A DNA stretch of 40,836 nt from Bacillota bacterium. Lineage in GTDB: Bacteria; Bacillota; Dethiobacteria; DTU022; UBA8154. Shown here one piece after another: positions 25,841 through 35,769 of the stretch (positions are counted from its first letter, which is position 1; each line of letters opens with the position of its first letter). Location: positions 1 through 40,836 of the forward strand of contig JAAYRR010000032.1 in assembly GCA_012518675.1 (NCBI GenBank). The letters are read 5' to 3'. Under the pieces are notes generated by a model. That model did no database searches, was not told where the DNA came from, and saw only the letters and a list, made by a program, of their open reading frames with translations. The position numbers and the translations under genes were made by a program.

Positions 25841-27907
25841 TTATGCCGTTGCATCAGCCTTTCTGATACTGCAGAGGATACCTTTAAACTGGGGGTAGCC
25901 CATGATCGGTTCACGGCACGCGGCATCTGTCAGGCGGTTGCAGTTGGCGTCTCCCGACCAGCCGTGGGGAACAAGAACTACCCCTTCCATGACCCTTTCA
26001 TCCACATGTGCTTTCATTTTAACCCAGCCCCGGTCTGTTTCCACAATCACATCGTCAGCATGTTCCACGCCATACTGTGCTGCTGTTTGGGGTCCCAGTT
26101 CGGCCAGGGGGTGCGGTTCTTCAAGACGCAGGGCTTCAATATTACGCAGCTGACTGTTGGTGGAATGCAATCTTCTTATGCCCGTGGCCAGAACCAAAGG
26201 ATACCGTTCTCCTAATTTTTCCCAAAGGGGGCCCTGAGGGCTCTTGGTAGGTTCCAGGTAAGTCGGCAGGGGATCATGGCCGGCTTCCTTAATGGCTTCG
26301 CTATAGATTTCAATCAGCCCGCTGGGTGTGTAGAAGGTTTTATCATCAACATGATAAACCTTGTCTGTGTAATAAACCCCGTCCTTCTGTTGTTTGAGGG
26401 TTTCTAAATCAATACCGCTCGGACTGATTTCATCGGCTACCAGTTCTTCTTCTGTCTCCCAGGGAAATTTGTCGCCGATACCGCAGGCCTTGGCCAGTTC
26501 ACGGAAAAAGTAAAGCGTGGACTTGCCTTCATACAGCGGCTCAATAGCTTTTTCCCGCAGCATCATATAGGGGAGACAATGGCACACGTTATAGTTGTAG
26601 GCCAGGGAGGCATATTCCAATTGGCTGGCAGCCGGCAGGACATAATGTGCCTCCTGGGCTGTCTCTGTCATGAACATTTCGTAGACAACCAGCAGTTCAA
26701 GTTTTCTGTACGCTTCTTTCAAGGCGTTGGAATCGGGCATGGTCACCAGGGGGTTGCCGCCGACAACAATTAACGACTTGATAGCGTCGGGCACCTGTTC
26801 ATGAAACATGTTTTGCACACCATAGGAGCTGGTTCTGCCCCAAATTTCATAAAAGAGGGGATATTCGTCAGCGCCTAAGGGCTTGCCTTCAGAGGGCAAG
26901 GTAAGGTTGGCCAGCTTCAAGCGGGGGCTGACCACCCATCCCCCGGGCACGTTGATATTTCCGGTGATGGATTGCAAAATGGCGATAGCCCGGTCTGTTT
27001 GCGTCCCATTGGCAGAGTGATCCTGGGTACAGGTGCCCTGGAAAATTCCCGCACCTTTGGTGGTTGCAAACAGGCGTGCCAGTTTGCGGATGTCATCCGC
27101 CGGTACATAGGTTATTTTTTCCGCCCATTCCGGGGTATATTGTTGCACGTGGGGCACCAGTTTATCAAAGCCCAATGTCCATTTCTTAACAAATTCAGCA
27201 TCGTAAAGGTTTTCATTGATAATGACATGGATCAGGGCCAGAGCTAAAGCCCCGTCGGTACCCGGCCGGATGGCCATATACATTTCTGCCTGATCGGCAA
27301 TGGGGATCCGCCGGGGATCGATAACAACCACTTTGGAACCTTTTTTCAGGTTTTCCTCCAGGGCCAGGGAAAGGGGGAAATCGGAAGCATCCGGGTTATG
27401 TCCCCAAAGAATATAAAGTGGCGAATCCATTTCTTCCACCGGATATTTGCCAAAAGTGATCTGCCGGCTGCGGATCCGCATGCGGTAGCAGATACTTTCC
27501 ACGGAAAAGAATTGCGAGGATTCCATAGCTGCCCGGAAGCGGTGTGTGAGTGTAACCATTTCCAAACTTTCCACACCGATAGAACCGCAGAAAAAGGCGT
27601 TGGCTTCGGGCCCATGCTCCTCTTTCAGTTGATTCAACTTGGCTGCTATTTCAGAGAGGGCTTGTTCCCAGCTGATTCTTTCAAATTTCCCGTTAACTTT
27701 TTTCAGGGGGTACTGCAGCCGATCGGGGTGGTACAGGTGGTCTGTCAGCACCTTAGCTTTGGGGCAAAGTTCACCCTTGTTGAGCGGGTGTTCTTTAATG
27801 CCCTGGATACCGACCACCTTGCCGTCTTCAACCGTTACTTCTGCACCGCAACTGTGATAACAAAGGTAACAACCCGTATTATACTTTTCTTGTTTAGTGG
27901 CAGACAT
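25841..27907 (-). CDS. Molybdopterin (bis-PGD, Mo or W) oxidoreductase, single subunit, acetylene-hydratase-like branch
   Basis: The protein has 688 aa. A [4Fe-4S] site is formed by C13-x2-C16-x3-C20-x27-C48, followed by the bisPGD domains (WGHNPDASDF, VVIDPRR, VVGGNPLVTMPD) and a C-terminal molybdopterin-binding barrel (PLVLATGIRR...VPHGW). A likely metal ligand is Cys140 in VESICYRMR, at the position where acetylene hydratase has its W-ligating Cys. There is no Tat signal and no partner electron-transfer or membrane subunit, so it is cytoplasmic. The residue after the second cluster Cys is Tyr, not the catalytic Asp of acetylene hydratase, so that exact reaction is unlikely. Candidate roles are a hydroxylase, transhydroxylase or reductase acting on the substrate of the adjacent pathway. 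The start is ATG 27907 (RBS AAGGAGG, 10 nt); TTG 27913 is possible. It is controlled by a sigma-54 promoter. Confidence 0.88.
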   Translation of the reverse strand: MSATKQEKYNTGCYLCYHSCGAEVTVEDGKVVGIQGIKEHPLNKGELCPKAKVLTDHLYHPDRLQYPLKKVNGKFERISWEQALSEIAAKLNQLKEEHGPEANAFFCGSIGVESLEMVTLTHRFRAAMESSQFFSVESICYRMRIRSRQITFGKYPVEEMDSPLYILWGHNPDASDFPLSLALEENLKKGSKVVVIDPRRIPIADQAEMYMAIRPGTDGALALALIHVIINENLYDAEFVKKWTLGFDKLVPHVQQYTPEWAEKITYVPADDIRKLARLFATTKGAGIFQGTCTQDHSANGTQTDRAIAILQSITGNINVPGGWVVSPRLKLANLTLPSEGKPLGADEYPLFYEIWGRTSSYGVQNMFHEQVPDAIKSLIVVGGNPLVTMPDSNALKEAYRKLELLVVYEMFMTETAQEAHYVLPAASQLEYASLAYNYNVCHCLPYMMLREKAIEPLYEGKSTLYFFRELAKACGIGDKFPWETEEELVADEISPSGIDLETLKQQKDGVYYTDKVYHVDDKTFYTPSGLIEIYSEAIKEAGHDPLPTYLEPTKSPQGPLWEKLGERYPLVLATGIRRLHSTNSQLRNIEALRLEEPHPLAELGPQTAAQYGVEHADDVIVETDRGWVKMKAHVDERVMEGVVLVPHGWSGDANCNRLTDAACREPIMGYPQFKGILCSIRKADATA

Positions 27908-28072
27908 AAACAAATTACCTCCTTAAAAAAAATAATAAATTTTTTCCTTGAAATAACCACGCATTTATTAATACCATCCACATACCGTCTTTACATTGTA
28001 CTCTGCTGATGCCGTTTTCTTTGCATTTTGGTTAACCTTTATTTTTTGGAAACTGTTCTCGCTATAAAATTA

Positions 28073-28089
28073 TTGCAATAACAGTGCCA
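28073..28089 (-). promoter_or_regulatory. Sigma-54 (-24/-12) promoter of the Mo/W oxidoreductase
   Basis: The minus strand reads TGGCAC TGTTA TTGCAA, an essentially perfect match to TGGCAC-N5-TTGCW. It lies about 165 nt upstream of the gene. The activator and its binding array lie further upstream. Confidence 0.93.
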
Positions 28090-28217
28090 ACCTGAAAGTG
28101 TTACGGGCTGGCCAGAGCTAAAATTGGCGCAATCTTGAAAAAAAGGAAGCAAATCAAACCTATTATGCTTTCAAGGAATTTTGGCGGGCCGCTAAAAGGA
28201 TAATTTTGTAAGCTGGT

Positions 28218-28280
28218 TGTAACAATAGTGTAACATATCTGTGACATAGCTGTTTAAATATGTTGCAATATAGTTACATA
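28218..28280. promoter_or_regulatory. Array of ~11-bp-phased TGTAACA half-sites (activator binding array A)
   Basis: TGTAACA (28218), TGTAACA (28229), TGTGACA (28240), TGTTTAA (28251) and TGTTGCA (28261) recur every 11, 11, 11 and 10 bp, followed by an inverted AGTTACA. They therefore fall on one face of the helix. The array lies about 130 bp upstream of the sigma-54 promoter and directly upstream of the activator's own -35, so it can serve both activation and autoregulation. Confidence 0.75.
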
Positions 28281-28294
28281 GCGGGGCCGCTAGA

Positions 28295-28323
28295 TTGAGG
28301 AAGCCGCCGGGGTATGGTAAAAT
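28295..28323 (+). promoter_or_regulatory. Sigma-A-like promoter of the sigma-54 activator gene
   Basis: TTGAGG, a 17-nt spacer and TAAAAT with extended TGG. Predicted start is near 28330, just before the RBS. Confidence 0.65.
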
Positions 28324-28347
28324 ATTATCAATACAAGGGGGATGAAG

Positions 28348-30300
28348 ATGCCTGATCTTTCCACTTCCACACAATTTAAAAAGGAAAATCTGGAAAAGGC
28401 CTGGGGACTTTTTATGTCTAAGGGGATTATTGATCCCAGTGTGCGATCAATTATCGCTCAATCCTGGCAGCGCAGCCGGCTCAAAGGGGTAAACCCCTAC
28501 AGTGAAAAAACTAAAAAACTGGAGCCAGATCTTTTCAAGGCAGAACTTGCTGCCAATGAAGACCTCCTGGCTACCGCTGTGCCTATTATTAAAAATCTTT
28601 ATAATTTTGTACAGGGTTCCTGTTTTTTAATTTCCCTGGCCAGCAATAACGGGATTATCTTAGAGGTTTTGGGGGACGAGGAAATTGTGGTCAAGTCTCA
28701 TGTTAAAAAAGGTGACATTTGGACGGAGGAATCTAATGGCACTAATTCTACATCCCTGTGCCTGACAACGCAAAAACCGATCCAGGTCTTTGCGGCAGAA
28801 CATTTCTGTAAGTCAGCTCACCAATGGACCTGTTCCTCCGCACCGATTTTTGATGAAAATAAAAAATTTATCGGTGTTTTGAGTATGGCCGGGGATTACA
28901 CCAAGGTACACCTGCACACCCTGGGCATGGTTGTGGCCAGCGCCAATGCTATCGAAAACAATATGCGCATCCAAAAATCTTTAAATGAAGCGACCATCGC
29001 TGATAATTTTAAGACGGCGATTATCGAATCTATTGACGAGGGCATCCTTGTATTAAATAGGGACCGGACAGTCGGCCACATCAACAGCAATGCCAAAGTT
29101 CTGCTGAAGATTCCGGCAGATAGAAAAGTAATTTCTCAGCCCATTGCTGCAATTCTGGGGGATATTCATCCGGTTACGCACAAAATTGAAAAATGTTTTC
29201 AGCAGCTGATCGATGACGAAATGCTTTTTTTGGAAGAAGAGGACTATATAATCAGCCACAGGTTGATCTATTCTTCTGATCAGAAAATTGTTGGTTTGGT
29301 GCTAATATTAAGGGGTTCAAGCAAGATGAAAAAACTGGTCAACAGCTATGTAGGCCCCCGGGCCACATACACTTTCACCAACCTGATCGGTAAAAGCAGT
29401 AAATTTTTAGCTGCTGTTAACCTGGCTCATGTCGCCGCGCAAAGTATTTCCAACGTTTTACTGGTTGGCGAAAGCGGCACCGGCAAAGAAATTTTTGCCC
29501 AGGCAATTCACAATGCCAGCGATCGGAAAACCGGTCCTTTTTTGGCAATAAACTGCGCTGCCCTGCCGCGTAATTTGGTGGAAAGCGAGCTGTTTGGTTA
29601 TGCCGAAGGCGCCTTTACCGGCGCTAAAAAGGGTGGAAACCCCGGTAAATTTGAACTGGCAGACGGCGGCACCCTTTTTTTGGATGAAATTGGCGAACTG
29701 CCGCTTGAATTTCAAGCCATCCTGTTAAGGGTTTTGCAAGATAAATTGATTACCCGCATCGGGGGCAAAAAATTAATTCCGGTAGATGTGAGAATCATTG
29801 CCGCTACCAATAAAAATTTGGAAGAGGAAATTGTCAAAGCAAACTTCCGCCAGGATCTGTATTACAGGCTTAATGTTTTAACCATCAACATTCCCCCCTT
29901 ACGGGAAAGGCCGGAGGATATTGCAGTCCTGGCCAACCATTTTTTAAACAAACTTAACCTTCGCCTTAATAAAAAGATAAAATATATTGATAAAGAGGTG
30001 ATGGAGCTTTTTACCCGCTACAGCTGGCCGGGCAACGCCCGGGAGCTACAAAATATTGTGGAACGTTCCCTGAATATCGCCACCAAAGATCATATTTCCA
30101 CAGCCGTTTTGCCCGGGGAAGTGAAGGCCCTGCAGCAAAAGGAAAATAATGCAGAATTAATGCCCTTGGAACAATATGAAAAAGAACTGATCCTGACCCT
30201 TCTAAATGAAAACCAGGGTAACAGGACGCGGGTGGCTAAAAGAATGGGAATTTCCAGGACTTCACTTTACAGAAAGTTAAATAAATATAAAATTTCCTGA
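28348..30300 (+). CDS. Sigma-54-dependent transcriptional activator (GAF-PAS-AAA+-Fis HTH, AcoR-like)
   Basis: The protein has 650 aa. The N-terminal region (about 60-200) is a GAF-like sensor of the AcoR type ([35 protein letters not shown]). A PAS-like domain follows ([25 protein letters not shown], about 212-320). The AAA+ domain has Walker A GESGTGKE near 374, the sigma-54-contact loop GAFTGA near 421, and Walker [14 protein letters not shown]. The C-terminus is a Fis-type HTH ([25 protein letters not shown]). There is no receiver domain, so it is ligand-responsive. ATG 28348 has AAGGGGG 6 nt upstream; 28342 overlaps the RBS. It should drive the two sigma-54 promoters flanking it. Confidence 0.95.
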
Positions 30301-30647: not shown

Positions 30648-30703
30648 TTGTAACAATATTGTACGTTATCTGACAGTTGTGTAACATTATGTTACACAAC
30701 TGT
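30648..30703. promoter_or_regulatory. Activator binding array B ending in a perfect 31-bp palindrome
   Basis: TGTAACA (30649), TGTACGT (30660) and TGACAGT (30671) are spaced 11 bp apart and align with array A (shared TTGTAACAATA, then TGTA, then TATCTG). From 30673 to 30703 ACAGTTGTGTAACAT, one T and its exact reverse complement form a 31-bp palindrome. It lies about 225-280 bp upstream of the sigma-54 promoter at 30929, a typical enhancer distance. Confidence 0.8.
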
Positions 30704-30928
30704 TGCTTTATTTGCGCAAAATTTTTTTAAAAAGTTATCGCAAAAATTTTTAAAAGCCCCGATGTATTCTGTAGGGACAAACACCCCTGCAGCAGATATT
30801 TACTGCGCTATTCCCATTATAAAAGGTTTCTACCTTGTGTTTGGCTCTAGGCGCGAACAGGCGGTATTTGTGAAAGTTTGATTATAAAAAGGGTTTTTTG
30901 TTCATATTAGGGCAAGTTTTTTTTAGGC

Positions 30929-30944
30929 TGGTATAATAATTGCA
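30929..30944 (+). promoter_or_regulatory. Sigma-54 promoter of the catabolic operon
   Basis: TGGTATAATAATTGCA has GG and GC separated by 10 nt, matching the -24/-12 pattern with TTGCA intact. Predicted start is near 30955, about 80 nt before the first gene. Confidence 0.82.
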
Positions 30945-31037
30945 AGTTCTTTAAATTAGAAGAATTATAATACTAAAATTAATAATGATTTCAGTGTCAA
31001 AGTTAAAATTTATTCAAGAGGGAGGTTTTAAAAAAAG

Positions 31038-31889
31038 ATGACTGTTTCAAAAATCGGTGTTCTTGGGGCCGGAACCATGGGAGGAGGTATTGCACAGGTT
31101 GCAGCCCAAGCCGGATTTCAGGTAGTTTTATGCGATCTTGAATTTTCCCTGGTTGAAAAGGCGGTTGCCCGCATGGAAGCCTTTTTAAGCCGCAGTGTAG
31201 AAAAGGGCAGGCTAACCGCAGAGCTTAAAGGGCAGGCTTTGAACAACATTACCAAAAGCGCTGCCGTGGCTGATTTTGCCGACGTCGATCTGGTTATTGA
31301 AGCTATTAGTGAAGATCTGGAATTAAAAAAAGAGGCCTTCGCACAGCTTGATCAGGTTTGTAAGGCCGAAGCTTTGCTGGTTACAAACACTTCTTCCATG
31401 TCTGTTACGGCCATAGCAGGGGCGACTAAAAGGCCGCAGCAGGTTGCCGGTATGCACTTTTTTAACCCGCCGGCGCTTATGAAATTGGTGGAGGTGATTC
31501 GCGGTTATGATACTACGGACGAAACCGTAAAAACCATCTTTGAAGTTGCCAAAAAGATGGGCAAGACCACGGTAGAGGTAAAGAAGGATTTCCCCGGCTT
31601 TATTGTAACCAGGGTCAATATGGCCCAGGTGATCGAGGCTGTGCGCCTGGTGGAAGAAGGGGTGGCCAGCCCGGAAGATATTGATACGGCAATGAAGCTG
31701 GGCCTTAACTGGCCGATGGGCCCCTTTGAGCTACAGGACTTCATGGGGGTGGATGTGACTTATTTCATTCTAAATTATCTGCAGGATGAATTTAAGGACA
31801 TGCGCTGGAACCCCCCTCAAACCCTGAAAGCGCTAATAAAATCCGGGCGTTTTGGGCGCAAAAATAAGTCCGGTTGGTTTGACTATTAA
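31038..31889 (+). CDS. 3-hydroxyacyl-CoA dehydrogenase (3-hydroxybutyryl-CoA dehydrogenase type)
   Basis: The 283-aa length is that of single-domain Hbd/PaaH enzymes. The Rossmann motif GVLGAGTMGGGIAQVAAQAGFQVVLCD binds NAD(H). GMHFFNPPALMKLVEVI carries the catalytic His, and NTSSMSVTAIA and FPGFIVTRVNMAQVIEAVRLVEEGVAS fit the family. It oxidises a 3-hydroxyacyl-CoA. It is first in the sigma-54 operon, with GGGAGG well placed upstream. The acyl chain or ring it accepts is unknown. Confidence 0.94.
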   Translation: MTVSKIGVLGAGTMGGGIAQVAAQAGFQVVLCDLEFSLVEKAVARMEAFLSRSVEKGRLTAELKGQALNNITKSAAVADFADVDLVIEAISEDLELKKEAFAQLDQVCKAEALLVTNTSSMSVTAIAGATKRPQQVAGMHFFNPPALMKLVEVIRGYDTTDETVKTIFEVAKKMGKTTVEVKKDFPGFIVTRVNMAQVIEAVRLVEEGVASPEDIDTAMKLGLNWPMGPFELQDFMGVDVTYFILNYLQDEFKDMRWNPPQTLKALIKSGRFGRKNKSGWFDY

Positions 31890-31917
31890 AAATTGAAGAA
31901 TCTGAGGGAGGAATATT

Positions 31918-32703
31918 TTGCAGATGTCTGAACAGGTACTTGTGCTGGAAAAACGGGCTGATTATGCAGTATTGACCTTAAACCGTCCCCCTTATAATCC
32001 CTTAAACGGACAAGTCTTTGCCGATCTGGGCAAAACGTTAACTGCGCTTGATTCTGACTTGGAAATGAAGGCTTTGGTTATTACAGGGTCAGGAACAAAG
32101 GCTTTTGCTGCCGGTGCAGATGTTACAGAAATTGCTGCCCATACCCCCCTGGAACAGTACACATTTTTGCGTTTAATACTTTCTACCTTAGAGCAGCTGG
32201 AAAACCTAAGGATGCCGACTGTCGCTGCTGTTAACGGCCTGGCCCTGGGCGGAGGGTGTGAATTGGCGCTGGCCTGTGACTTTCGCCTGGCAGCTGAAAA
32301 CGCCAAATTTGGGCAGCCGGAAATTAGCCTGGGGATTATGCCCGGGGGTGGCGGCACCCAGCGTTTGGCACGGCTAATCGGGTTGTCCCGGGCCAAAGAA
32401 CTCGTTCTTCTGGGGGAAACTATTGATGCGCCTACTGCTGAAAAATATGGGTTGGTCAACAGGGTGTTACCCGGCACGGAACTGATGGTGGAAGCGGAAA
32501 AAATGGCCGCCAAATTGGCCTCCCAACCGGTAATCGCTGCCGCAGTGATTAAAAAAGTAATGAACAGGGGGCAACAGTTGGATTTGGCCGCCGCGCTCGA
32601 ACTGGAAATTAGCAGTTTCATGGTGACCTTTACCAGCAAGGACGGCCAAGAAGGGCTGCATTCGTTTCTGGAAAAGCGGCAGCCGGAATTTAAAGGGAAA
32701 TAA
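31918..32703 (+). CDS. Enoyl-CoA hydratase/isomerase (crotonase family)
   Basis: The protein has 261 aa. AFAAGADVTEIAAH and NGLALGGGCELALACDFRLAAENAKFGQPEISLGIMPGGGGTQRL contain the oxyanion-hole segments and both catalytic glutamates of true hydratases. It adds water to a 2-enoyl-CoA, supplying the substrate for the dehydrogenase 28 nt upstream. TTG 31918 has GGGAGG 6 nt before it; ATG 31924 has a looser spacing of 12 nt. Confidence 0.93.
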   Translation: MQMSEQVLVLEKRADYAVLTLNRPPYNPLNGQVFADLGKTLTALDSDLEMKALVITGSGTKAFAAGADVTEIAAHTPLEQYTFLRLILSTLEQLENLRMPTVAAVNGLALGGGCELALACDFRLAAENAKFGQPEISLGIMPGGGGTQRLARLIGLSRAKELVLLGETIDAPTAEKYGLVNRVLPGTELMVEAEKMAAKLASQPVIAAAVIKKVMNRGQQLDLAAALELEISSFMVTFTSKDGQEGLHSFLEKRQPEFKGK

Positions 32704-32732
32704 TTTAGCAAAATAAAAGCAGGAAGGAGGAA

Positions 32733-34403
32733 ATGGTTTTGGCGTTATTCGTTCCCTACCCCAAGGAATTTGCAGAGGAATATAAAAGGAAAGGATATTG
32801 GGCGGGTCTTACCCTGGGGGAAGCTTTGGATGAAGTGGCAGCGGTTTTTCCCAATAAAGAGGCATTGGTTGCCGCAGACAGGCGTTTGAACTACACACAG
32901 CTCAAAGACGAGACAGATCGCCTGGCAGTAGGTTTTTTAGATTCTGGTTTAAAGCCGCGCGATCGTGTTATTGTGCAGCTGCCAAACATTGTCGAATTTG
33001 TATGTTGTTATTATGCTTTATTGAAAATAGGTGTGATTCCCGTAATGTGTCTCCCCCAGCACCGCTTTAGCGAAATTTCATACATTGCTGCACAATGTGA
33101 GGCGCGGGGGTATATCATTCCCGATGTATACAGGAGATTTGATTACCTAAAGTTTGCAGAGGAGATCAAGGAAGCGACACCCGCGCTGAAAAATGTCTAT
33201 GTCGCTGGGGAAAATTGTCCGGCAGGGTTTATTAACCTGCAGGAACTGATGCAAGCTGAAACAGACCCGGAACGGATCAGCACACTGTTAAAAGAAAACA
33301 GACCCGCTCCGATGGAGGCCGCTGTCTTTCTACTTTCCGGCGGGACAACGGGTTTACCCAAAGTTATCCCCCGCACCCATAACGATTACCTCTACACGAT
33401 GAAAGCAACGGCTTTACAGTCAGGGTTAAGTAAATATTCCAATTATTTGGCGATTGCACCCCTGGCCCATAACATGACGCTGTCCTGTCCAGGAATAGGC
33501 GGTACATTTATTAACGGCGGAAAAGTAATTCTTTCTCAATCAGTAGCTGTTAAGGACATGTGTGCAATTATTGAAAAAGAGAAGGTTACGATCGTTGGCC
33601 TGGTTCCAGCCCTGATTATCAGCTTATTAAATTATGAAAAAAAAGAGGAAAGCGATCTCTCCTCTCTGGTGAGCATTATCTCCGGGGGGTCCAAGTTAAA
33701 CCCCGAAGTGGCCAAAAGGGTGAAGCCGGAACTGGGCTGCAACTTAATTCAGCAATTTGGCATGGCTGAAGGTGTTCTGATGCAAACCGACGATCTGTCT
33801 GATGAGGAAAGGGTAATTTTTGAAACCATTGGCCGGCCAGTTTCCCCTGCTGATGAAATCAGGATTGTAGATGGTAACGGCTTGGATGTGCCTCCCGGTG
33901 AAGTGGGGGAAATGATCTGCCGGGGTGCTTATACGATCCGGGGCTATTATAAGGCACCGGAACATAACCGCACTGCTATTACTGCAGAGGGTTTTTTCCG
34001 GTCAGGCGACTTAATGCGCCTAGATGTAGAAAGTGGCTGTTACATTGTGGAGGGGCGGATTAAGGATATGATTAACCGCGGGGGGGAAAACATCAGCGCC
34101 GAAGAGCTCGACAACCTGATCTTATCCCATCCCAAGGTAGACAATGCTGCGGTGGTGGCCATGCCCGATCCGCTTTTAGGCGAAAAGTGTTGTGCTTATA
34201 TAACATTAAAAGAAAAACAAAGTTTAACACTGGAAGAGTTAAATTCCTTTCTGCTTAGCAAGCAGATTGCCAAATTTAAATTGCCGGAAAGGCTGGAAAT
34301 TGTCGCTGAACTGCCTTTGACAAATGTGGGTAAAGTTTCAAAAAGGGAACTTAAATTGGATATTGAAGCAAAAATAAAGCAAGAAAATGCTGCAAAAGAA
34401 TAA
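32733..34403 (+). CDS. Aryl-acid:CoA/AMP ligase related to EntE/DhbE
   Basis: The protein has 556 aa. YPKEFAEEYKRKGYWAGLTLGEAL, FLLSGGTTGLPKVIPRTHNDYLY, GRPVSPADEIRI, RGYYKAPEHN and GRIKDMINRGGENISAEELDNL follow the 2,3-dihydroxybenzoate-AMP ligase family closely, including the catalytic C-terminal Lys (TNVGKVSKREL). In the acyl pocket AHNMTLSCPG has Cys where 2,3-DHB enzymes have Ser (EntE Ser240); Cys is seen in salicylate-activating members. No carrier protein is present, so CoA is the likely acceptor. GGAGG is only 2 nt from ATG 32733, so TTG 32739 may be the real start. It activates the imported acid. Confidence 0.9.
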   Translation: MVLALFVPYPKEFAEEYKRKGYWAGLTLGEALDEVAAVFPNKEALVAADRRLNYTQLKDETDRLAVGFLDSGLKPRDRVIVQLPNIVEFVCCYYALLKIGVIPVMCLPQHRFSEISYIAAQCEARGYIIPDVYRRFDYLKFAEEIKEATPALKNVYVAGENCPAGFINLQELMQAETDPERISTLLKENRPAPMEAAVFLLSGGTTGLPKVIPRTHNDYLYTMKATALQSGLSKYSNYLAIAPLAHNMTLSCPGIGGTFINGGKVILSQSVAVKDMCAIIEKEKVTIVGLVPALIISLLNYEKKEESDLSSLVSIISGGSKLNPEVAKRVKPELGCNLIQQFGMAEGVLMQTDDLSDEERVIFETIGRPVSPADEIRIVDGNGLDVPPGEVGEMICRGAYTIRGYYKAPEHNRTAITAEGFFRSGDLMRLDVESGCYIVEGRIKDMINRGGENISAEELDNLILSHPKVDNAAVVAMPDPLLGEKCCAYITLKEKQSLTLEELNSFLLSKQIAKFKLPERLEIVAELPLTNVGKVSKRELKLDIEAKIKQENAAKE

Positions 34404-34466
34404 AAAGTTAAAGCAAGATGGAAAAATACATGAAAATAAAACTGTCTAAGAAAGGGGTTGTTCCCC

Positions 34467-35555
34467 ATGCTATTTTCTCCCGTAAATTATAAAAATCTTA
34501 GTTTAAAAAACAGGCTCGTCTGGCTGCCGGTTGTCAGTTGGCTGGCTGAGGAAGATGGTTTTGTAACCGATGCGCTGATTGATCGCTACCGCCGCCGGGC
34601 AGAAGGCGGCATCGGTATGGTCACCCTGGAAGCTACCGGTGTCCTGGATCGGAGAAGCCCCAGGCTGGTTAAAATTTGCGACGACAAATATATGCCCGGG
34701 CTGGAAAAACTTGTGCAGGCAGTGCATGATGCCGGCGCCAAAATTTCTGTGCAGCTGATCCACTATGCTAAAAAGTCTAAACGGACGGGGTGGAAGCAAC
34801 AGGTTGAAGATTTGAGCCTGGACGAAATTGAACAGGTCAAAAAGGATTATGAGGCGGCAGTGGTCAGGGCCAAAAAAGTAGGCTTTGATGTTGCTGAAAT
34901 TCACGTAGCACACAGTTATACCCTGGCCTCCTTTATTTCTCTTTTGAACAAGCGTAAAGATGAATACGGCCGCGATATTAACGGCAGGGCCAAGCTCGTT
35001 CTTGATATTTTGGAAAGGTGCCGGGATAAAGTAGGCGACGACTATGCGATCGGCGCCCGGATTAGCGGTGAAGAATTTGTGATGGGCGGCAATACTTTGA
35101 AGCAGACCAAGGTAATTTCACGGCTGATGGCTGAAAAGGGATTGGATTACCTCAGCGTTTCAGCCGGTGGGAAAGATGAGGACGGGGACTGGTATACAGG
35201 TTACAGTTCAACCCGGAGCATGCCCACCGCCAACCTGCCCTATGGGTGCCATGTCTACCTGGCCAAAGGCCTCCGGGACGAAGTGGCCCCCCTCGGGGTG
35301 CCGGTTATTGCTTCGGGGAAAATCAATACCCTGGAACTGGCGGAAGAAATTATTAAAGAGGAAAAAGCCGATCTGATCGGGGTCTGCCGTCCCTTGCTGG
35401 CCGACCCGGACTGGGCGCTGAAACTGAAGGAAAATAGGGAAGATGAACTGGTAAAGTGTACTTATTGTAACACCTGCCTGGTCAGGGATCAGCGCTTCGA
35501 AGCGGTGGAATGTATTGAAGCCGAAAAAGCGGCAAGAAGAGCAAAAAAGGAATAA
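34467..35555 (+). CDS. Old-yellow-enzyme-family FMN oxidoreductase (enoate/dienoyl-CoA reductase-like), lacking the FAD/NAD domain
   Basis: The protein has 362 aa. The TIM barrel starts LFSPVNYKNLSLKNRLVW and contains EIHVAHSYTLASFISLLNKRKDEYGRD, the substrate-site His pair of the family, and VPVIASGKINT for FMN phosphate binding. CTYCNTC with a further Cys 12 residues later matches the [4Fe-4S] site. Full-length 2,4-dienoyl-CoA or 2-enoate reductases have about 650 aa; here the protein stops after the Fe-S loop. It must take electrons from a separate partner. ATG 34467 follows AAAGGGG by 9 nt. It probably reduces a C=C bond of the acyl-CoA or ring. Confidence 0.9.
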   Translation: MLFSPVNYKNLSLKNRLVWLPVVSWLAEEDGFVTDALIDRYRRRAEGGIGMVTLEATGVLDRRSPRLVKICDDKYMPGLEKLVQAVHDAGAKISVQLIHYAKKSKRTGWKQQVEDLSLDEIEQVKKDYEAAVVRAKKVGFDVAEIHVAHSYTLASFISLLNKRKDEYGRDINGRAKLVLDILERCRDKVGDDYAIGARISGEEFVMGGNTLKQTKVISRLMAEKGLDYLSVSAGGKDEDGDWYTGYSSTRSMPTANLPYGCHVYLAKGLRDEVAPLGVPVIASGKINTLELAEEIIKEEKADLIGVCRPLLADPDWALKLKENREDELVKCTYCNTCLVRDQRFEAVECIEAEKAARRAKKE

Positions 35556-35714: not shown

Positions 35715-35769
35715 TTGTAACATTCTGAAACAGGTGCCACTAAATTAGAAAACCTTACAACCTTGTAAG
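35715..35769. promoter_or_regulatory. Candidate regulatory sites upstream of dctP
   Basis: CTTACAACCTTGTAAG (35754-35769) is a perfect 16-bp palindrome, and TTGTAACATTCTG (35715) resembles the half-sites of arrays A and B. A weak sigma-A-like TTGAGA-16-TAACAT overlaps (35696-35723). No good sigma-54 site is seen here. Confidence 0.45.

Follow-up and report, generated by a model that had tools for sequence, protein, structure and literature searches.

A phased array of TGTNACA-like half-sites as the probable enhancer of a neighbouring sigma-54 activator in a Bacillota bacterium

Introduction

What does a regular run of near-identical heptamers do in the intergenic region next to a sigma-54 activator gene? 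Such a run lies in the window, by which we mean the whole stretch of DNA that was analysed (40,836 nucleotides, one contig of a 1.93-Mb assembly with 157 contigs), where an initial annotation had described five TGTxxCA-like units within 28218-28280. Here, we ask how far this array extends, which promoter it could serve and which regulator is likely to bind it. Our answer is that the array probably serves as the UAS (enhancer) for the product of the sigma-54 activator gene at 28342-30300.

Results

The array contains the following units and dyads (window coordinates).

28207-28278, unstranded: phased half-site array of seven TGTNACA-like units, from left to right 28207 TGTAAGC, 28218 TGTAACA, 28229 TGTAACA, 28240 TGTGACA, 28251 TGTTTAA, 28261 TGTTGCA and 28272 AGTTACA
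28207-28224, 28218-28235, 28229-28246 and 28261-28278: TGT-N12-ACA dyads without an outer mismatch
28240-28257: N12 dyad with two mismatches
28251-28267: sole N11 dyad of the array, with one mismatch

The five units noted initially are real and all begin with TGT, four of them being exact TGTxxCA, but the one at 28251 is without the CA end. The array is also longer than described, since the flanking units at 28207 and 28272 are in register with the five and bring the total to seven. The steps between the units (11, 11, 11, 11, 10 and 11 bp) bear out the proposed helical phasing of about 11 bp. We scored chains of TGTNACA at 10- or 11-bp steps against 2000 dinucleotide shuffles of the 428-bp intergenic region. 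The array reached a score of 15 versus a shuffle mean of 2.7 and a maximum of 8, and thus withstood the comparison with shuffled sequence that the initial annotation had proposed. A motif-free test, in which any 7-mer could form five units at 10- or 11-bp steps, picked out the array as well (z 6.1, 0 of 100 shuffles; z 6-7 over two runs). A genome-wide motif search had also been suggested; across the 1.93-Mb assembly, a run of three perfect units spaced at 11 bp turned up a single time. Over both strands of the window, the two top-scoring chains are the array and a second cluster at 30649-30707, which flank one activator gene. On either side of the array lies a copy of GCGGG(G)CCGCTA (28184-28194 and 28281-28292); the window holds no other copy on the plus strand and one further copy on the minus strand.

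The units had been called direct repeats. They do repeat, but TGTNACA is nearly self-complementary, and therefore the same letters can also be read as overlapping inverted TGT-N12-ACA dyads. With 11-bp steps these dyads are 18 bp long, and four of them provide the inverted TGT/ACA half-sites with a 10-12 bp spacer that are expected of a UAS. Any unit could form either side of a dyad, which would allow two alternative registers of three dyads each.

The genes and promoters around the array, together with further half-sites, are arranged as follows.

25841-27913, minus strand: molybdopterin oxidoreductase gene, 690 aa, formate-dehydrogenase-alpha-like, below the NCBIfam cut-off; predicted target
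28073-28090, minus strand: sigma-54 promoter TTGGCACTGTTATTGCAA of this divergent gene, with the GG of the -24 element at 28087-28088
28295-28323, plus strand: sigma-A-type promoter of the activator, TTGAGG-N17-TAAAAT, with an extended -10
28342-30300, plus strand: sigma-54 activator gene, 652 aa; predicted binder of the array
30649-30707, unstranded: second half-site cluster, upstream of the promoter at 30928-30945
30649-30665: N11 dyad TGTAACAATATTGTACG of the second cluster
30680-30696: N11 dyad TGTAACATTATGTTACA of the second cluster, a perfect palindrome
30928-30945, plus strand: sigma-54 promoter CTGGTATAATAATTGCAA of a beta-oxidation-type operon
31038-35555, plus strand: this operon, a predicted target, with 3-hydroxyacyl-CoA dehydrogenase, enoyl-CoA hydratase, acyl-AMP ligase and an OYE-family flavoenzyme
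35716-35732, unstranded: further TGT-N11-ACA dyad TGTAACATTCTGAAACA, upstream of TRAP-transporter genes (dctP)

The activator consists of an AAA+ domain with GAFTGA, a lid and a C-terminal Fis-type HTH_8 domain; its best full-length NCBIfam match is DhaR, below the cut-off. A sigma-54 gene is present in the genome. The array had been placed upstream of the activator, and it does adjoin that gene, but the perfect sigma-54 promoter of the divergent gene had been overlooked. Only two perfect matches to TGGYAYN5TTGCA occur in the window, within the promoters 28090..28073 (match at 28089..28074, minus strand) and 30928-30945 (match at 30929-30944, plus strand). One lies on each side of the activator gene, both are directed outward from it, and a TGTAACA cluster lies upstream of each, which is why a UAS of the activator is the best reading of the array. 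Counted from the GG of the divergent promoter, the array occupies about 117-191 bp on the upstream side (its centre at about 155 bp), within the 100-250 bp reported for UAS sites in Clostridiales (PMC6615313). The promoter of the molybdopterin oxidoreductase gene is the likely main target, and both promoter context and gene order support the sigma-54 activator as the predicted binder, as had been proposed.

A pair of N11 dyads at a distance of 31 bp describes the second cluster better than a phased array of the 28207-28278 kind does. With the array excluded, near-perfect TGTNACA pairs occur at six independent places in the genome, two of which fall within 7.5 kb around the activator (chance ~2e-4). 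A 12-mer common to both clusters was dropped as evidence, because 31 of 300 shuffles (10%) reach such a match and it is thus not significant alone. Within the second cluster, 30671-30705 forms a long inverted repeat with a TTGTGTAACATTATGTTACACAA core that was also flagged by a terminator scan, and here a UAS reading and a hairpin reading overlap. The dyad at 35716-35732 is placed after a terminator-like inverted repeat, and no sigma-54 promoter was seen downstream of it.

An alignment of orthologous intergenic regions had been proposed as a further check, and its outcome is mixed. The nearest activator orthologues (L107 and L108) are about 61% identical, and in both the activator gene is transcribed away from an operon with the same gene set (dehydrogenase, hydratase, OYE, ligase). 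Their intergenic regions contain a sigma-54 promoter and, upstream of it, a conserved block TGTAACAT...TGGACAGTGTAACATTAATGGACAA with TGTAACA half-sites; by eye, they also contain a sequence resembling the activator's sigma-A promoter (TTGAAA-N17-TAARCT). The TGTAACA half-site is thus conserved, but the five-unit array is absent. Lack of conservation in close relatives had been named as grounds for refutation; at only about 61% identity, this does not strictly apply. From the same genus there is one further genome, G001, with a completeness of 87%, and it yielded no activator orthologue (best E 7e-79).

In two other relatives (L008 and L109), the gene after that of the activator encodes a molybdopterin oxidoreductase with 45-53% identity to the one in the window, and at 52-98 bp past the activator gene come three CGT-N11-ACG dyads that overlap one another, each exactly 15 bp from the next. 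Since the relatives split the targets between them, the window joins both target types around one activator. The recognition helix is near-identical in the window, L107 and L108 and carries an Arg-to-Lys change in L008 and L109, a substitution that would fit the TGT versus CGT half-sites. The CGT-N11-ACG dyads precede the sigma-54 promoter of the oxidoreductase, another form of chained dyads.

Beside homologous activators, TGT-N11-ACA occurs 14 times versus 1.6 expected in 19 sigma-54 promoter regions, and 27 times versus 2.5 expected in an enlarged set of 34. N12 dyads are rare in this promoter set (7 versus 2.7 expected). Homologous activators thus mostly have the 17-bp TGT-N11-ACA dyad, and the 11-bp array is an atypical variant. 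Its N12 spacing departs from the N11 spacing of the activator's own relatives, and we therefore assign it, as a variant, to the broad TGT-N10-12-ACA type of UAS.

The array had also been considered unusual, and it is: among 36 sigma-54 promoter regions by homologous activators, strongly significant phased arrays (z above 4.5) are found only on the two flanks of the window's activator, at L217 and at L238. L217 and its counterpart in a second species, L218, carry five units at exact 11-bp steps (TGTCATA, TGTCATC, TGTAACC, TGTGACA, TGTTACA), about 94-144 bp upstream of the sigma-54 promoter TTGGCATGATTTTTGCTA. The operon under this promoter includes an aldehyde-ferredoxin-oxidoreductase-like gene (identified by eye from its sequence), and an activator homologue is encoded a short way downstream, in the same orientation. 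The two species resemble each other too closely for phylogenetic footprinting of the array. At L238-L240, eight TGANACA units precede the sigma-54 promoter TTGGCAAGGTAWTTGCAT at the following positions (reverse-complement coordinates).

L238, 11002-11082: eight-unit TGANACA array
L239, 11468-11548: eight-unit TGANACA array
L240, 11208-11288: eight-unit TGANACA array

Their step pattern (11-11-11-10-11-10-10) is identical across three species in two genera, and the unit cores are identical at 43-47 of 48 positions (90-98%) versus 10-15 of 25 (40-60%) in the spacers. Given how few of the 36 regions have such an array, together with L217/L218 and the conservation at L238-L240, we conclude that the phased array is rare and recurrent, with selection acting on it in one case. 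We discounted a sigma-54-like match near L186, since this 18-mer recurs, exact or with one base changed, at L197, L199 and L200, apparently inside a conserved gene.

Discussion

Several points speak against reading the array as a UAS of the activator: its dyads are N12 and not N11, the second cluster consists of N11 dyads instead, the two nearest orthologues with the same operon are without the array, and the units of the array fit the WalR/VicR box. According to this last point, dimers of an OmpR-family regulator (WalR/VicR or PhoP/PhoB-like) would bind the 11-bp TGTWAH-N5-TGTWAH repeats and control the activator or the divergent gene. Positions 28218-28234 match this box perfectly and also fit the extended VicR form TGTWAHA-N4-TGTWAHA (PMC4168254). 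WalRK is encoded in the genome, and the walR promoter, which the genome pattern search recovered as a TGTNACA pair at C55, carries TGTAATATTGCTGTAAC. Additionally, three-unit arrays of TGTNACA letters occur in 23 of 399 genomes of the phylum, many with a sigma-A -10, and some adjoin genes resembling a response regulator and a kinase. Nonetheless, we regard this explanation as unlikely. In walR and many such promoters the -10 follows 16 nt after the last unit, but at the array neither strand shows a sigma-A -10 at that distance of about 16 nt (the arrangement of walR and L166), and the good 11-bp sites lie at least 60 bp upstream of the activator's -35. An OmpR-family box would also leave unexplained why a perfect sigma-54 promoter stands at enhancer distance, why TGTAACA dyads accompany the second such promoter and why the sites cluster around the activator gene. 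Exact matches to the WalR consensus in the genome are mostly intragenic. As for a Pho box, no PstB above the curated cut-off was found in the assembly. Elsewhere in the phylum, the genomes G185, G214, G220 and G245 contain several 11-bp TGTNACA arrays each (L197-L203, L214), some just upstream of gene pairs of about 231 and 472 aa, the sizes of a response regulator and a kinase; these arrays look like a putative regulon of one OmpR-family regulator.

Alternatively, the site could be composite, with the activator on the dyad at 28251-28267, the only N11 dyad of the array, and a second regulator on 28218-28246, where the 11-bp repeats are strongest. We consider this quite improbable given that all seven units keep one phase and that the unbroken five-unit array of L217/L218 shows the 11-bp form at a sigma-54 promoter. 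The AT-rich intergenic region (37% GC) and the degeneration of the units toward the right would suit chance periodicity or a non-regulatory repeat, but we give this hardly any credence: the shuffles and the motif-free test reject chance, and the two best chains of the window would have to flank one activator gene by accident. Replication iterons were rejected, since the neighbours are a sigma-54 activator and metabolic genes, without a replication initiator gene or origin, and the label "iteron" captures a likeness of shape only.

As UAS of the activator, the array could work as follows. Dimers of the Fis-type HTH would bind neighbouring TGT/ACA half-site pairs, all on one face of the DNA, so that about three dimers might sit side by side at steps of about 22 bp, enough to seed one AAA+ hexamer. 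DNA looping would then bring the activator ring to the sigma-54 RNA polymerase at 28090..28073 and switch on the molybdopterin oxidoreductase gene. The second cluster may act likewise, via the promoter at 30928-30945, on the beta-oxidation-type operon at 31038, and the activator might also exert feedback on its own sigma-A promoter. Cooperative oligomer loading on the array, as the initial annotation had hinted, is plausible from the arrangement of the half-sites.

Food for a broader, and for now tentative, idea is that some Bacillota sigma-54 activators may use continuous phased arrays of five to nine units with conserved steps as one-piece, hexamer-templating enhancers that can be filled in alternative dimer registers, the 11-bp half-site letters being shared with OmpR-type boxes and distinguished only by the neighbouring promoter. 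What is known of how sigma-54 activators pass from dimer to active hexamer on DNA comes mostly from discrete sites, NorR being an example. With one continuous natural array that offers a half-site per turn, and whose exact steps are conserved in L238-L240, the influence of half-site number and phase becomes directly testable. TGTNACA repeats at 11 bp can stem from either of two unrelated families of regulators, and a motif search for WalR-like regulons should therefore consider the promoter type as well.

The array can be compared with several known systems. The UAS of Fis-type activators with TGT-N10-12-ACA (NifA, FhlA, PrdR and other Clostridiales groups; PMC6615313) has the same TGT/ACA half-sites, and these systems also share an HTH_8 activator with GAFTGA, encoded by an adjacent gene, and a position 100-250 bp from a -24/-12 promoter. 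Unlike their separate dyads, the window has six or seven phased half-sites that form overlapping 18-bp dyads. It had been assumed that most sigma-54 activators use one or two dyads, but this does not hold strictly: of 263 activators surveyed in Clostridiales, 198 had multiple UAS sites (PMC6615313). In the case of NorR, the higher-order oligomer assembles on the three enhancer sites upstream of norVW, which provide the scaffold (PMC2941729). Divergent genes and several enhancer sites are common to both systems, and by analogy the array could have a scaffold role; NorR, however, has three discrete sites, whereas the half-sites of the window recur every 10-11 bp and could be paired in two registers. 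The WalR/VicR box (consensus TGTWAH-N5-TGTWAH; PMC4168254) has the same unit letters and the same 11-bp period, but it is a two-unit consensus with a sigma-A -10 at a fixed distance in this lineage, whereas the array has seven units and a sigma-54 promoter instead. Similar in form are the arrays of L217/L218 and L238-L240, with five or eight half-sites at 10-11 bp steps and a sigma-54 promoter downstream. They differ from the window in their target operons (aldehyde ferredoxin oxidoreductase-like in L217/L218, an Fe-S protein gene in L238-L240), and the units of L238-L240 are TGANACA.
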